Assembly: GCF_036345915.1 (NCBI RefSeq)
Contig: NZ_CP107785.1
Span: 6,572,001 to 6,636,000 of the forward strand
Reading direction: 5' to 3'
Source: Nocardia sp. NBC_00565
GTDB lineage: Bacteria > Actinomycetota > Actinomycetes > Mycobacteriales > Mycobacteriaceae
DNA: 64,000 bases
A program made the position numbers and the translations under genes. Below are positions 22,170-34,428 of the stretch, in pieces (position 1 is the first letter of the stretch; each line of letters starts with the position of its first letter). The notes beneath the pieces were generated by a model that was not told where the DNA came from, did not search any database, and saw only the letters and a program-made list of their open reading frames with translations.

Positions 22170-22207
22170 TTTGTGGCTACAATAATATTTATAAAAGTGG
22201 CCACAAA
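22170..22207. promoter_or_regulatory. Inverted repeat over the toxin-antitoxin promoter
   Basis: TTTGTGGC (22170-22177) and GCCACAAA (22200-22207) are perfect 8-bp arms flanking a 22-bp, very AT-rich core that includes TACAAT and TATAAA hexamers, striking in this high-GC DNA. The right arm runs into the AAAGGAG ribosome site of the antitoxin. This is the expected layout for antitoxin/toxin autoregulation. Confidence 0.65.
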
Positions 22208-22217
22208 GGAGCGCAGC

Positions 22218-22472
22218 ATGGACGTCGGTATTCGAGAACTACGTGACAGCCTCAGCCGCCATCTGGCCGAGGTCCGCTCCGGACATACGGTGACCATCAC
22301 CGATCACGGACGGCCGATCGCCCGCATCGTTCCCGTCGATCGCCCGACCCGGCTGGAGCAATTGCGTGCTGAAGGGCGCGTGCAGCCCGCGCGCAAGAAG
22401 AAGCAGCCCACGCCCGAGCCGATCCATGGGAAGGGCATTGTCAGCGAACTCATCGAAGAGCAGCGTCGGTGA
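22218..22472 (+). CDS. vapB: Antitoxin, Phd/YefM (VapB) type
   Basis: An 84-aa antitoxin. The N-terminal Phd/YefM DNA-binding fold is recognised from MDVGIRELRDSLSRHLAEVR, TVTITDHGRPIARIVPV; the C-terminal half is basic then acidic (ARKKKQP, IVSELIEEQRR), the usual disordered toxin-binding tail. AAAGGAG is well placed before the ATG. The stop overlaps the toxin GTG by 4 bp, giving coupled translation. It should neutralise the PIN toxin and bind the upstream repeat. Confidence 0.9.
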   Translation: MDVGIRELRDSLSRHLAEVRSGHTVTITDHGRPIARIVPVDRPTRLEQLRAEGRVQPARKKKQPTPEPIHGKGIVSELIEEQRR

Positions 22473-22909
22473 TCGGATACCTCGATAGGTCGGCCTTCGT
22501 ACCCCTGCTGGTCAGTGAGCCGAGCAGTGACGCCTGCCGCCGGTTCTGGGACGACGCTGACGCCGTCGTGTCGAGCAGGATGCTGTACGTGGAGACTGCG
22601 GCGGCGCTCGCACAGGCGCATCGAATGGCACGTCTCGATGACGCGGCGTATGCGTCGTGCCGAGGTCTGCTGGACCAACTCTGGCCACAGCTCGAGGTCA
22701 TCGAAGTGGATGAGGAATTGATCCGGCGCGCGGCCGAACTCACCGGCCTCCTCGCGTTACGCGGATACGACGCCGTCCACTGCGCCGCCGCCGAACAGTT
22801 GGAGGACCCGGATCTCGTCGTCGCATCCGGCGACAAACGTCTACTCGACGCGTGGAAGTCATTGAGGCTGGCGACCTTCGACACAAACGCACCTGAGGAC
22901 GCTGCCTGA
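22469..22909 (+). CDS. vapC: PIN-domain toxin (VapC type)
   Basis: A 146-aa PIN-domain ribonuclease. The acidic active-site set is visible: Asp6 in GYLDRSA, Glu in LYVETAAAL (near 42), Asp in RGYDAVHCAAA (near 100) and Asp in VASGDKRLL (near 118). The length is normal for VapC, and nothing suggests inactivation. VapC toxins cleave specific RNAs, often tRNA or rRNA; the target cannot be read here. The GTG start overlaps the antitoxin stop. Confidence 0.9.
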   Translation: MIGYLDRSAFVPLLVSEPSSDACRRFWDDADAVVSSRMLYVETAAALAQAHRMARLDDAAYASCRGLLDQLWPQLEVIEVDEELIRRAAELTGLLALRGYDAVHCAAAEQLEDPDLVVASGDKRLLDAWKSLRLATFDTNAPEDAA

Positions 22910-30233: not shown

Positions 30234-30719
30234 GTGGATCACAGAGCTTTCGGAGACACCCCGGTGTCCCGCTGCCACTTCTATCGGCGGGTGTGTGATC
30301 TGCCCGCGAATATCGACCCACCGTACCTTGGCCGGATCGTCATGAAGGCCGAACATGTGTGGGCGCTGATGCTTCCCGCCCATCTCGGCCAATCCGTGAA
30401 AATCCATATGCAGCAACATGGTTCGGATATCGGTCCGATGGTGTCGCATCCGCGCTCGAATCGGTGGACTTTCCTCGTGCGGCCCGACATCCCTGACGAC
30501 GTGGGCCTGTTCGCCGAGATGTACCGGCTCAACGTGTCGGTAGTGCGAACAGGCGGCACCGTCGCGTTACCCTCGCCCGCCGACCAAGGCGCACAGTTTC
30601 GACGCTGGATCGAACCACCCCGCTGCACGTTCCGGCCCTCTGGCCTTGCGGTGGTCGACGCGATACGTGCTTGCTCGAGTCCATATCGGCCCGTACGGCG
30701 GAGCGCCGCTCATGCCTGA
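30234..30719 (+). CDS. 161-aa hypothetical protein, paralogue of 2195-2680
   Basis: A 161-aa protein matching the one at 2195-2680 over its full length: FGDTPVSRCHFYRR, CDLPANIDPPYLGRIVMK, DIGPMVSHPRSNRWTFLVRP, EMYRLNVSVVRTGGTVALPS and RRWIEPPRCTFRPSGLAVVD. I choose the GTG at 30234 because it gives exactly the same length; an AAGGA lies about 10 bp upstream. It is divergent from an XRE gene, as its sister is, but here the XRE gene is broken while this one is intact. Function unknown. Confidence 0.8.
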   Translation: MDHRAFGDTPVSRCHFYRRVCDLPANIDPPYLGRIVMKAEHVWALMLPAHLGQSVKIHMQQHGSDIGPMVSHPRSNRWTFLVRPDIPDDVGLFAEMYRLNVSVVRTGGTVALPSPADQGAQFRRWIEPPRCTFRPSGLAVVDAIRACSSPYRPVRRSAAHA

Positions 30720-30852
30720 ATGTGATTGCGGGCCACGGATCAAACTCTCTGGGCGCTGCCCGTTGATCGGGGTCCGTGTAGTCGACGGCCGTGAGGACTT
30801 CGTATCCGGTGTCCCGGTGCAAGTCCTGCTGACACCGGTGCAGCGGTCATGA
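30712..30852 (+). CDS. Small hypothetical protein (46 aa)
   Basis: A 46-aa frame overlapping the end of the 161-aa gene by 8 bp, with a GGAG motif about 9 bp before its ATG. It starts MPECDCGPRIKLSGRCPLIG and ends with a VQVLLTP segment. Three cysteines (C4, C6, C16) could hold a metal, but this is speculative. The overlap and ribosome site favour a real gene; no family recognised. Confidence 0.5.
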   Translation: MPECDCGPRIKLSGRCPLIGVRVVDGREDFVSGVPVQVLLTPVQRS

Positions 30853-30860
30853 ACGCAAAC

Positions 30861-31343
30861 TCTCAGCCCGAGGGCGAATCCGCGCAGCCCAAACTTGGTT
30901 GCGTCATAAATGGCGGCGTCGGCCGCTGGAACTCTGCCCCCGATGGAGCCGATGAAGACGATGTGACCGGCCGCCCGTTGCTGCATCAACCGGACAAGTT
31001 GGTGGGCCATCAGAATCGGCGTACGCAAATTCACAGCGAGCGCGTCATCGATGTCCGCCGCAGCGAAGTCTCCGAGCTTCCCCAGTGCTGCGACACCCGC
31101 GTTCGCGACGAACACGTCAACCTGTCCGACCTCATCGATCAGCCGCGCGATCTCCTGAGGTTAGGTGAGGTCGGCGGCGATGGACGTGGCGCCCAACTCG
31201 CTCGCGAGCTGCTGCAAGACGTCGACTCGCCGGCCCGTGAGAATCAGAACCGCCCCCTGCGCGCTGAATTCACGCGCTATGGCCTGCCCGATACCGCCGG
31301 TCGCACCAGTCAACAGGACCGTCTTACCCCCTACGTGCATCAT
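30861..31343 (-). pseudogene. Short-chain dehydrogenase, nonsense-mutated and truncated
   Basis: The minus strand encodes the first two thirds of a classical SDR: KTVLLTGATGGIGQAIAREF (cofactor loop), then FVANAGVAALGKLG, HIVFIGSIGGRVP and the catalytic AAIYDATKFGLRGFALGLR. An in-frame TAA at 31161-31163 interrupts the protein between LGATSIAADLT and PQEIARLIDE, and the reading is continuous on either side, so it is a point nonsense change. Homology stops at about 30861, where the 161-aa module begins, so the last 80-100 residues are lost. It is divergent from nothing and adjacent to the TetR gene, its possible former regulator. Confidence 0.75.
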
Positions 31344-31384: not shown

Positions 31385-31930
31385 TCAGGCCAGCACGTTA
31401 CCCTGTCGAAAGATCGAGGCTAGTTCTTCATACATGTCGTTCATCTGTTCCCCAGTGGTCCCACTCATCTGCGCGCCGATCAGCGCGTTGAGGGTGATGT
31501 TGGCGCAGATCTCAGCGATGGCTCGTGCTACTCCATGGTCGACGAGTGATTGCGTGAGCCCGTCGCGACGAAGCCGGTCCACGCGCTGTTGCGCCGCGGC
31601 AACTTGGGGGTTGATCGTTGCCCACGCCCGCAGTGCCACTTCGGCTCCGTGGGGCAGCGAGACCGCCTGTTGTACCTGACGTTTGATCATTGCCGAAATG
31701 TCATCGACTGCGGCCGCTGCGGTGATGAGGTCGCGGCTGTAATGGCGCTCCCAGTACGACAGCAGTCCGCCGACGAACGCCTCGAAACTATCGAAGTGGT
31801 GATAGAAGGAGCCACGAGTCACCGCCATGCGATCGCATAGCGCGGACGCGCTCAATCCGGGGAAGCCGGATTCGTCGAGGACGAGCAGCGCCAATTCAAA
31901 GTAGTCTTCGCGGCTTCGTCGAATCGCCAT
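31385..31930 (-). CDS. TetR-family regulator of the AveC/EXPERA pair
   Basis: A 181-aa TetR regulator. The DNA-binding domain reads LDESGFPGLSASALCDRMAV, then TRGSFYHHFDSFEAFVGGLL. The C-terminal domain is short and hydrophobic. It is transcribed divergently from the AveC-family gene; the 105-bp divergent region has two 14-bp palindromic sites 25 bp apart that are likely its operators. A GGAGG lies 10 bp before the ATG. Ligand unknown, possibly a lipophilic polyketide or sterol-like molecule given the target genes (inference). Confidence 0.88.
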   Translation of the reverse strand: MAIRRSREDYFELALLVLDESGFPGLSASALCDRMAVTRGSFYHHFDSFEAFVGGLLSYWERHYSRDLITAAAAVDDISAMIKRQVQQAVSLPHGAEVALRAWATINPQVAAAQQRVDRLRRDGLTQSLVDHGVARAIAEICANITLNALIGAQMSGTTGEQMNDMYEELASIFRQGNVLA

Positions 31931-31974
31931 CTCGCGGTGGCCTCCATGTAGTACTTCGGGATTGACTCACGACC

Positions 31975-32013
31975 ATACTACCCTGTATGTTCCCAGAAGA
32001 TACAGGGCTGTAT
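31975..32013. promoter_or_regulatory. Twin TetR operator candidates before the AveC-family gene
   Basis: Site 1 at 31975-31988 reads ATACTA-CC-CTGTAT and site 2 at 32000-32013 reads ATACAG-GG-CTGTAT, the latter a perfect 6-bp-arm palindrome. The pair also creates a larger perfect inverted repeat, CCCTGTAT (31981-31988) / ATACAGGG (32000-32007). Centres are 25 bp apart, so two dimers could bind nearly opposite faces or side by side. Site 2 ends 22 bp before the GTG start. Confidence 0.65.
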
Positions 32014-32035
32014 GGTCTGCGCAGAGGGAAGAACC

Positions 32036-33061
32036 GTGTCAACTAATGTGGATGAACGTCAGACCGCTGCGTCGGATGAATTGCCGTCGGGCATTCAGGG
32101 TCGGGACGCGCCGCGAGTTGTGTGGCTGGCGCGCATCGGCGTGCTGTTCGTGCTGCTCCAGGCATACATATACGGGCGTTGGATCTTCTCCGACCAGTTC
32201 ACGCCCGCCCCAACGGGTTCCGACCCGCTGTCGGCCTCCCAGGAGTTTTGGATCCGCTGCTGGGACATCGTCAGCATCGCGGCATGTGTCGGGTTCCTCA
32301 TCTGGATCGTGTGGAAGACAGTGCGAGATCGGGCGATACCCACCTTGGGGATCGTCACCATCGCCTGGATGCTCACCGCCTGGCAGGACCCCGGTGTCAA
32401 CTACATCCGGCCGGTTTTCTCCTACAACGACCACTTCTTCAACCGCGGAACATGGGCCCAGTTCATACCCGGCTGGGTCAACCACGCGGGCGCCAACCCA
32501 CAGCCGATTTTCTTCTGGGTCGCTACCTATTCGGGGCTCATGGTGGTTGGCATCCTCGGCATCTGTCAGCTGCTCGACAGAGTTCGAAAAGCCTTCCCGA
32601 GAATCAACAAGGCGGGACTTCTGGCGCTGCTATTTCTCTTCTCGGTCATCAGCGACGCTGTCGCTGAATCGATCTGGATGCACCAAGGGTTATGGGCATA
32701 TCCGAGGGTGAACGGCACCTGGTCGCTGTTCACAGGCGGCATCACGCAACTGCCGCTGTTCGAACCTCTTGTATTCGGCGGGTTTGTGGGCACGGCGGCG
32801 ACCGCCATCTATTACTTTCGCGACTCGAACGGTCATATGATCACGGACACGGGACTACGCAAGCTCACGATCAAGCGTGGACGAACTCCCGTTCGCGTGT
32901 TGGCCCTGTGCACGGTCCTGAACGTGCTCATGCTCGTTTTCAACATGGGGTGGAACATGGTCAACCAACATGCCGACACCACGCCAACCCATGTCCCAAG
33001 CTACTTCTCCAGCGAACTGTGCGGCCTCGGCGCCAGTTCTGCGTGCCCGCCACCGAAGTAG
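32036..33061 (+). CDS. AveC-family (spirocyclase-like) membrane protein
   Basis: A 341-aa integral membrane protein of the AveC family. AveC of Streptomyces avermitilis forms the avermectin spiroketal, and homologues of unknown function occur in Nocardia and mycobacteria. About seven hydrophobic segments are visible, with conserved-looking polar runs between them: DPGVNYIRPVFSYNDHFFNR near residue 113, WAQFIPGWVNH near 135 and ESIWMHQGLWAYP near 210. I choose the GTG at 32036 with AGAGGGAAG upstream; an ATG at 32012 lies inside the operator. No polyketide synthase is present nearby, so the natural substrate is open. Confidence 0.8.
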   Translation: MSTNVDERQTAASDELPSGIQGRDAPRVVWLARIGVLFVLLQAYIYGRWIFSDQFTPAPTGSDPLSASQEFWIRCWDIVSIAACVGFLIWIVWKTVRDRAIPTLGIVTIAWMLTAWQDPGVNYIRPVFSYNDHFFNRGTWAQFIPGWVNHAGANPQPIFFWVATYSGLMVVGILGICQLLDRVRKAFPRINKAGLLALLFLFSVISDAVAESIWMHQGLWAYPRVNGTWSLFTGGITQLPLFEPLVFGGFVGTAATAIYYFRDSNGHMITDTGLRKLTIKRGRTPVRVLALCTVLNVLMLVFNMGWNMVNQHADTTPTHVPSYFSSELCGLGASSACPPPK

Positions 33062-33181
33062 TCGATCGCATGGTTCAACGAAGCCACCACGACGCTCAGT
33101 ACGCGTCGGTGAGTGCGGAAAGTTTCACCAAACGTCGGAACCGAGATGATTGCGGCGCCGACGCTGAACAACGGAGAAAGA

Positions 33182-33982
33182 ATGACTGATATCGCCAATC
33201 CGACGGCCCGGCGGGCACTACCCCTCAGCTACGGAAACTTCATCGTAATCATTCTCATACTGATCGCGTTATCTGACGTCTTGTGCTGGAGCGCCGCGGC
33301 GCATTTCGGTGTCAACAAGGCTCTCGCCTCCAACATATTCGTCGTCATCTGCACCTCGGCGATCGTGGCCGTCATCGTGCTGCCGTGGTTCAACCTCAGG
33401 GGGCAAGTAGGTCTCGACCGCGAGCAGCGTATGGAGAAAACGGCCGGCGCGTGGGTCGCGGTCCTTGCCTTGGTGCACCTGACCTGGGAGCTGCCCTGGG
33501 TACTCTTCCACAGCTACATCATGGGCACAGCGGGTGAGGGAAAGCTGTGGAGCTACATGTGGTGGATTTACGCCGACGGTGGCGACGTGCGCTACATCCA
33601 CCCCGACGACAATCTTCTCGCCCTGGAGTCCGGCGCGACGCTGTTGGGTTTGACCGCGCTTGTCTTGGTATATTTGCGGCGCAAGGCCGGGCGGTTCACC
33701 CGCGGCCAACTCGTGGTCGTCGCGAGCCTGATGGCCATCGAATTCTATTCGACGATCATCTATGTTCTATCGGAATCTTATTCGGGTATGAAGGACGTGT
33801 CGGGAGCCGCGAACCTCGTGGTGAAGTTCGGCTACGGGAACATTCTGTGGCTCACCGTTCCCTGCATCGTCTTCCTGTGGGCAAAAGGCCAACTTTCGGC
33901 ACCCGATAATCAATACCGCCCTCAAGGACAGTCGCAGACCGTGGACACAAGAGACACCCTGCACGCGCCCACCAACACCTAG
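33182..33982 (+). CDS. EXPERA/emopamil-binding-like membrane protein
   Basis: A 266-aa membrane protein with about seven hydrophobic segments. The arrangement HLTWELPWVLFHSYI, DVRYIHPDDNLLALESGATL, VVVASLMAIEFYSTIIYVLS and FGYGNILWLTVPCIVFLWA resembles the EXPERA domain of emopamil-binding protein (sterol delta8-delta7 isomerase) and TMEM97. In particular it has paired WE, an acidic E in ALESGAT and the late N-W-P motif. This is recognition by pattern, not alignment score. It follows the AveC-family gene by 120 bp with its own GGAG site and is probably in the same operon. Catalytic activity is unproven. Confidence 0.6.
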   Translation: MTDIANPTARRALPLSYGNFIVIILILIALSDVLCWSAAAHFGVNKALASNIFVVICTSAIVAVIVLPWFNLRGQVGLDREQRMEKTAGAWVAVLALVHLTWELPWVLFHSYIMGTAGEGKLWSYMWWIYADGGDVRYIHPDDNLLALESGATLLGLTALVLVYLRRKAGRFTRGQLVVVASLMAIEFYSTIIYVLSESYSGMKDVSGAANLVVKFGYGNILWLTVPCIVFLWAKGQLSAPDNQYRPQGQSQTVDTRDTLHAPTNT

Positions 33983-34059
33983 GGACAAGCAACAGCGCGA
34001 ATGCTCGATACCAGAATCAGAGGTTTGCTGATTTAGCCTCAATCCACCGACCCAGGTTT

Positions 34060-34098
34060 CGCGTTGGTCTGCGCGCCGGAGGCGCGCAGACCAACGCG
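34060..34098. repeat. Perfect 18-bp hairpin
   Basis: An 18-bp arm (34060-34077, starting CGCGTTGGTC) is followed by GGA and the exact reverse complement (34081-34098, ending GACCAACGCG). There is no T-run, so it is not a classical terminator. It lies just downstream of a transposase remnant and could be an insertion-sequence-associated palindrome or a bidirectional terminator. Sequence 33983-34059 and 34099-34174 shows no gene. Confidence 0.85.
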
Positions 34099-34174
34099 TT
34101 TCGGGTGTGGTGTAGTCGCTGGTCTGCCCAGCTTTTCCACTTCGATGTTGGTTCGGGCTGTTGGGCCGGGGCGG

Positions 34175-34428
34175 TCAGGTGGTGACGGGTTGTGGTGGTG
34201 TGTAGCCGATAGTGTTGTGCCACAACATGAGCCATGCGTCGGTCCAGGGCCAGTGGCTGGGTAGGTGCAGGATCGGTCGGCGTTGCGGGCGGGGATGTTG
34301 ACGATCTTGCGGCGCAGGGTGGCTGCGCGGGCGCGGGCGTGGCTTCCGCCGGCGAGGATGCCGGTGGCGCGCAGCAGGTTGTGGGCGATCGCGGCGCACA
34401 GGACCCAGGCAGAGTTGGCGCCGAACAC
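34175..34428 (-). pseudogene. IS1380-type transposase C-terminal remnant, frameshifted
   Basis: The minus strand reads FGANSAWVLCAAIAHNLLRA then ARAATLRRKIVNIPARNADR, and after a frameshift near 34270 continues LHLPSHWPWTDAWLMLWHNT in another frame to a stop at 34175. This is the C-terminal end of IS1380-family DDE transposases. The catalytic core is absent and no matching terminal repeats are obvious, so the element is dead. Confidence 0.75.

Follow-up and report, generated by a model that had tools for sequence, protein, structure and literature searches.

The window, a 64,000-nucleotide stretch of the one-contig, 9.7-Mb genome of Nocardia sp. NBC_00565 (contig NZ_CP107785.1, positions 6,572,001 to 6,636,000), includes a three-gene block in which a tetR gene is divergent from an aveC-like gene, which is followed on its own strand by a gene for a membrane protein resembling EXPERA-type sterol isomerases (Table 1). 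An earlier note, made from the sequence alone, had described a TetR regulator, an AveC-family protein, an EXPERA-like protein and twin 14-bp sites 25 bp apart, and this description was confirmed; no polyketide genes adjoin the window aveC. The two palindromic sites are located in the gap between tetR and aveC, which is about 105 bp when measured to the GTG codon at 32036. This codon is most likely the aveC start, the listed open reading frame beginning at 32012; the EXPERA gene most likely starts from the ATG at 33182 (listed frame from 33113), leaving 120 bp between the aveC stop and this start. The three intact genes have a guanine-plus-cytosine (GC) content of 0.59-0.61 versus 0.66 for the window, and the block looks horizontally acquired.

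Table 1. Features of the tetR-aveC-EXPERA block and its flanks (positions in the window).
Feature	Position	Strand	Evidence or remark
tetR, TetR-family regulator, 181 aa	31385..31930	-	PF00440 match; 4 of 22 named AveC loci have an adjacent homologue
Operator-like site 1, ATACTACCCTGTAT	31975..31988	none	Equivalents in all 4 named loci with a TetR homologue
Operator-like site 2, ATACAGGGCTGTAT, perfect palindrome with 6-bp half-sites	32000..32013	none	Same 25-bp spacing in L117
aveC-like gene, multi-pass membrane protein, Spirocyclase AveC-like family	32036..33061	+	PF17198
EXPERA/EBP-like gene, 266 aa, sterol-isomerase relative	33182..33982	+	Profile, fold, EBP triad H99/E103/E149
Sigma-70-like promoter match TTGACT-18-TATGTT, overlapping site 1	31962..31991	+	Weak: 1 found versus 1.0 expected by chance
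Broken SDR gene, N-terminal piece, 60 aa, in-frame TAA end	31164..31343	-	PF00106, E 1.2e-9
Broken SDR gene, second piece	30567..31115	-	PF00106, E 6e-19, residues 2-110; SDR likeness ends at about residue 110
Inverted repeat with a perfect 18-bp stem and a 3-base loop, some 80 bp past the EXPERA stop	34060..34098	none	Inverted-repeat search

EBP is a Delta8-Delta7 sterol isomerase that moves a double bond in cholesterol precursors. Searched alone, the window EXPERA protein matched no Pfam family at E ≤ 1, nor the EBP family PF05241 at E ≤ 10. When the PF05241 model was run on the alignment members, 21 of the 32 matched at E ≤ 10 (best 0.0016), the window protein not being among them, and a relative from another bacterial clade (M, see below) cleared the family cut-off with 26.8 versus 25.7 bits. 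A profile built from 32 relatives and compared with PDB sequences identified human EBP at E 5.9e-14, the next match having E 1.4. Also Foldseek and VIA-align both ranked EBP first for the structure model, which has a membrane helix core with the EBP fold, so that the proposed EXPERA resemblance was upheld by profile and fold alike. Profile and fold rank tie the protein to human EBP (3-beta-hydroxysteroid Delta8-Delta7 isomerase; PDB 6OHT, 8W0R), from which it differs in sequence (the structural alignment shows only 16% identity), in escaping PF05241 on its own and in being encoded in a probable bacterial operon.

According to passages of the alanine-scanning study, 11 EBP residues are essential (PMC4263179). 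These map to H99, E103, W127, Y130, D135, R137, Y138, E149, N220 and W223 of the window protein and to one doubtful threonine. For ten of the eleven, at most one of the 32 window-clade rows departs from the conserved residue (H99, E103 and W223 are conserved in 32 rows, E149 and N220 in 31), the only exceptions in these columns being one gap row at E149 and one phenylalanine at N220. For Thr125 the alignment is shifted by one, the counterpart being A152 or T153 (S/T in 31 of 32 rows). H99, E103 and E149 correspond to the EBP triad His76, Glu80 and Glu122, N220 to Asn193 and W223 to Trp196. In EBP the triad is described as the proton relay and Trp196 as holding the cation; loss of His76 or Glu80 abolished activity, and losses in the triad or of Trp196 abolish or lower it (passages of PMC6549186). 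Judged by its sequence, the EXPERA protein is homologous to EBP and conserves the EBP essential residues almost completely. That it has lost or altered its activity, serving instead as a sterol or lipid sensor or as a chaperone of AveC, appears very improbable.

The tree of a sample of 42 EXPERA rows divided the bacterial sequences into four separate clades: W (that of the window), M, M2 and R. Clades M and M2 are nearer to W than R is, and no AveC was present at the M and M2 loci examined. The EBP residue set is almost entire in W and M2, while in M arginine replaces His76 in 34 of 35 rows. Of 34 M-clade loci (L018-L024 and L061-L087, for example L061 9274-13642), 14 have Mce genes adjoining the EXPERA gene and 23 have a divergent TetR, different in kind from that of the window; they present an EBP-like protein linked to lipid uptake. 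Altogether 44 relatives of the window protein were found, some at 60-84% identity, and the named ones were all annotated as "hypothetical protein", except one "membrane protein YkgB". Proteins of PF05241 have been recorded in several Mycobacterium, Mycolicibacterium, Microbacterium and Nocardia (passages of PMC9903846), and EBP-like hypothetical proteins on a genomic island that also encodes a TetR and a probable cholesterol dehydrogenase (passages of PMC4818103). They belong to the same superfamily as the window protein, and these passages, from two genome papers, are silent on AveC, operators, conserved catalytic residues and tests of function; the window clade differs in having a precomputed Pfam domain in none of the 44 members found.

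Pairing of EXPERA and AveC genes was found again in the R clade, to which one early locus (L097) pointed. When 40 further Mycobacterium EXPERA loci were taken, mostly from weaker-matching places and not including all of these, AveC was present in 15, against 0.43 expected from the AveC density (123 matches in 240.9 Mb); the binomial P of 9e-20 is too small, since loci sharing descent inflate the co-occurrence statistic. Of the 41 loci including L097, 37 have an R-clade EXPERA gene, and 16 of these (L097, L177, L179, L180, L182, L186-L188, L194, L195, L197-L202) also have AveC, always on the same strand and within 10 kb. All 16 hold in addition a TetR, a Rieske oxygenase and an amidohydrolase. 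In this cluster (for example L199 2935-18639) these are found together with EXPERA and one or two AveC, the parts being named by Pfam and NCBIfam in L199 and L200. Optional parts in the 16 loci are a PaaE-like reductase and an SDR protein (13), a CbbQ-like ATPase (13), a VWA protein (12), an F420-type LLM oxidoreductase (8) and an acyl-CoA dehydrogenase (6); among all 37 R-clade loci CbbQ is present in 14 and the VWA protein in 12.

This mycobacterial TetR-EXPERA-AveC-Rieske cluster resembles the window block in having EXPERA and AveC on one strand near a TetR. It differs in its EXPERA clade, AveC type and TetR, in the altered positions of His76 and Trp196, and in being much larger. As far as gene neighbourhoods can tell, AveC beside an EXPERA protein is a recurrent arrangement in mycobacteria, and because W is distinct from R, while the clades nearer to W (M and M2) showed no AveC in the loci examined, the pairing seems to have been made or kept twice. 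The expectation that the pair would occur outside this genome was therefore borne out by the 16 R-clade loci and not by any conserved orthologous operon, EXPERA being absent from the fetched DNA of all 36 other AveC loci.

The window AveC belongs clearly to PF17198 (E 1.1e-36, 126.8 bits versus a cut-off of 26.6), in agreement with the family first proposed for it, and its structure model has a mean predicted local distance difference test (pLDDT) score of 80. The suggestion that it shares a pocket with the EXPERA protein was not supported: the profiles of the two showed no relation (hhalign probability 0.2%, E 0.31). Its relatives have 43-64% identity, those with an organism name being from Mycobacterium, Mycolicibacter or Nocardia, and at least one AveC-like match was present in 55 of 146 genomes of the genus. 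Genes no more than 6 kb from AveC were counted in the 22 named loci that have the window-type AveC; 13-14 of these loci appear to be one operon type by descent. A coenzyme A (CoA) ligase was found in 18 of the 22 (14 strong matches, >700 bits, and four weak, 106-158), an LLM-class oxidoreductase in 14, a mycofactocin-type SDR in 13, an SCP-x-type thiolase in 12, an aldehyde dehydrogenase in six, GntR in four and a TetR homologous to that of the window also in four; these names are the best NCBIfam matches, of which the mycofactocin SDR alone exceeds its cut-off.

In avermectin biosynthesis AveC has roles in spiroketal formation and dehydration (passages of PMC6490886). The window AveC shares the Pfam family of the avermectin protein and differs in having no polyketide genes adjacent and relatives that occur among CoA-linked catabolic genes. 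The literature found on AveC and spirocyclases concerned polyketides or AveC as a taxonomic marker, and none was found joining AveC with emopamil or EXPERA; a single search for AveC with Rieske oxygenases in Mycobacterium likewise gave none. A second AveC gene of the window genome (L031 9561-17611; G000:C1:2876600-2896599) has as neighbours genes for a KS/KR/DH polyketide synthase and an FAD enzyme, so members of the family may serve in catabolism as well as in polyketide synthesis. This second gene, and a 25-kb nonribosomal peptide synthetase (NRPS) frame 5 kb downstream of the block, would suit a tailoring role in secondary metabolism, for example on the product of the NRPS from 38994 on, as AveC has for avermectin. 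Such a role is improbable, however, because the NRPS is on the opposite strand with other genes intervening, the block is set apart by a regulator, operator-like sites and a base composition of its own, and the recurrent neighbours in the 22 loci are CoA-ligase, SDR, LLM and thiolase or aldehyde dehydrogenase genes.

The same neighbourhoods bear on a further alternative, a drug or toxin response module in which the EXPERA protein would bind or modify foreign amphiphiles and the TetR would be a multidrug-type sensor. EBP binds many drugs (passages of PMC6549186). Two of the TetR homologues match PF21993 (LmrA/YxaF-like C-terminal domain) weakly and below its cut-off (E 0.0016 and 0.0078), and MFS- or MmpL-like transporter genes were seen by eye a few genes from AveC in L101, L115 and L117. 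MmpL proteins may equally carry lipids. Transporters are nevertheless near AveC in few loci, the recurrent neighbours being catabolic enzymes, and the conserved residues go beyond the binding pocket to the catalytic ones, so that we consider the module unlikely.

The TetR protein matches PF00440 (TetR_N) with 27.1 bits against a cut-off of 24. Its homologues beside aveC, with 45-59% identity, are in L111 (N. arizonensis), L117 (Mycobacterium sp. E796, where it is divergent as in the window), L118 (Mycolicibacter sp. MYC340) and L122 (M. alsense). Each of these loci has a window-like palindrome ahead of the conserved aveC region. In L117 there are two identical copies, 25 bp apart, and in L122 two that are 22 bp apart. 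The pattern ATACANNNNTGTAT, allowing at most one mismatch, was present in all four loci with a TetR homologue and in none of the 18 without, an association that counts as support and not as an independent test since the pattern was loosened after these loci had been inspected. Matches off this position were an unrelated pair 9.4 kb away in L116 and a second match 6.4 kb away in L111. The exact pattern occurred at five places in the whole genome versus none for the reversed control, and only one of the five is inside the window. Two pattern matches outside the window, 17 bp apart, are located at G000:C1:1800940-1800970 (L206) and are possibly another site pair of the same or a related regulator. 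The combination of TetR, operator-like site and aveC recurs in other genomes, as judged from these sequences.

Broken SDR and low GC content would also fit a decaying mobile fragment, in which two functionally unconnected genes happened to be brought in together. In line with this, the 150 genomes of the genus that were searched gave no second EXPERA gene of the window clade: three have any match, namely the window's own and two others at 135-136 bits. We regard such a fragment as improbable: the frames of tetR, aveC and the EXPERA gene are all intact, the operator-like sites recur with the TetR, the EXPERA clade retains its catalytic set, and AveC and EXPERA are together again in a different clade.

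Several results weigh against a functional pair acting as EBP and AveC do. Within the fetched DNA, neither an R-clade query nor the profile of the window clade, taken up to E 10, found an EXPERA gene in any of the 22 named window-type AveC loci or in 14 further Nocardia AveC loci (together the 36 distinct loci mentioned above). Ten of these 14 (L135-L144) carry an R-type AveC (341-612 bits to the R query versus 128-139 to the window AveC), so that the AveC type paired with EXPERA in mycobacteria also occurs without it. Only one of the first 53 EXPERA loci examined, L097, had AveC nearby, AveC is absent from 21 of the 37 R-clade loci, and within clade W the pairing was seen in this genome only; the inflated co-occurrence statistic belongs here as well. 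All 39 R-clade rows have glutamine for His76 and phenylalanine or tyrosine for Trp196, which makes another chemistry possible in that clade. The EXPERA structure model is of middling confidence. Finally, the SDR gene behind tetR is broken, a hint of decay.

This SDR was probably once a dehydrogenase of the same pathway. The stem beyond the EXPERA gene has no T run, and no terminator-like site was called there in a terminator scan, so it is at most a possible terminator or element end. Positions 34039-34428 looked by eye like a transposase remnant, and a Pfam search of them gave nothing. Elsewhere in the window, 22173-22909 (+) has a Phd/YefM-type antitoxin and PIN-domain toxin pair. The NRPS reading frame (38994-64000, -) exceeds 25 kb and continues past the window end; condensation, AMP-binding and carrier domains were found in the 1000-residue piece searched.

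The reading we prefer, with a probability of about one half, is that aveC and the EXPERA gene encode an inducible pair of membrane enzymes acting in catabolism, which shift double bonds of a sterol- or terpenoid-like molecule and also dehydrate it. A steroid or terpenoid as the one lipophilic substrate of both proteins, as the earlier note had suggested, has become likelier with the conserved catalytic residues and the catabolic AveC neighbours, whereas the substrate itself, like the reactions, the DNA binding and the induction of the pair, is something we infer. The block would be an operon of two genes under TetR repression, encoding acid-base enzymes that are both embedded in the membrane. 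A TetR dimer may sit on both palindromes, covering the aveC promoter, until repression is relieved by a lipophilic inducer, which is probably either the substrate or the first product of its breakdown. The EXPERA protein would then protonate and deprotonate its substrate in the manner of EBP, so shifting a ring double bond, with H99, E103 and E149 acting as His76, Glu80 and Glu122 and W223 holding the carbocation. AveC would dehydrate or rearrange a nearby hydroxyl or keto group, as in avermectin, and this joint remodelling in the membrane would let oxidative and CoA-linked catabolism proceed. A Mycobacterium tuberculosis protein expressed in Escherichia coli reduced 8,14-sterols, according to passages of PMC13277303, which provides a precedent for sterol-ring editing in this order.

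More tentatively, and with doubt prevailing, a bacterial EBP-type isomerase with an intact catalytic triad, missed by Pfam, may form with AveC an inducible pair that rearranges the double bonds and takes away oxygen functions of a polycyclic lipid (sterol, triterpenoid or similar). On this wider proposal AveC would be mainly lipid-catabolic in Mycobacteriales, the avermectin spirocyclase being an offshoot, and two or more clades would have gained or retained the pairing with EXPERA, in one case within an undescribed mycobacterial Rieske oxygenase pathway.

Work on EBP-type isomerases concerns eukaryotic cholesterol metabolism and their use as drug targets, and the bacterial clade described here has a near-full catalytic set. 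The Mycobacteriales AveC relatives examined are mostly located among catabolic genes, some of them with an EXPERA protein. If the pair does remodel sterol rings, it would give access to a route of steroid or terpenoid breakdown in an order known for sterol catabolism, and its TetR would be a ready sensor for the compound.

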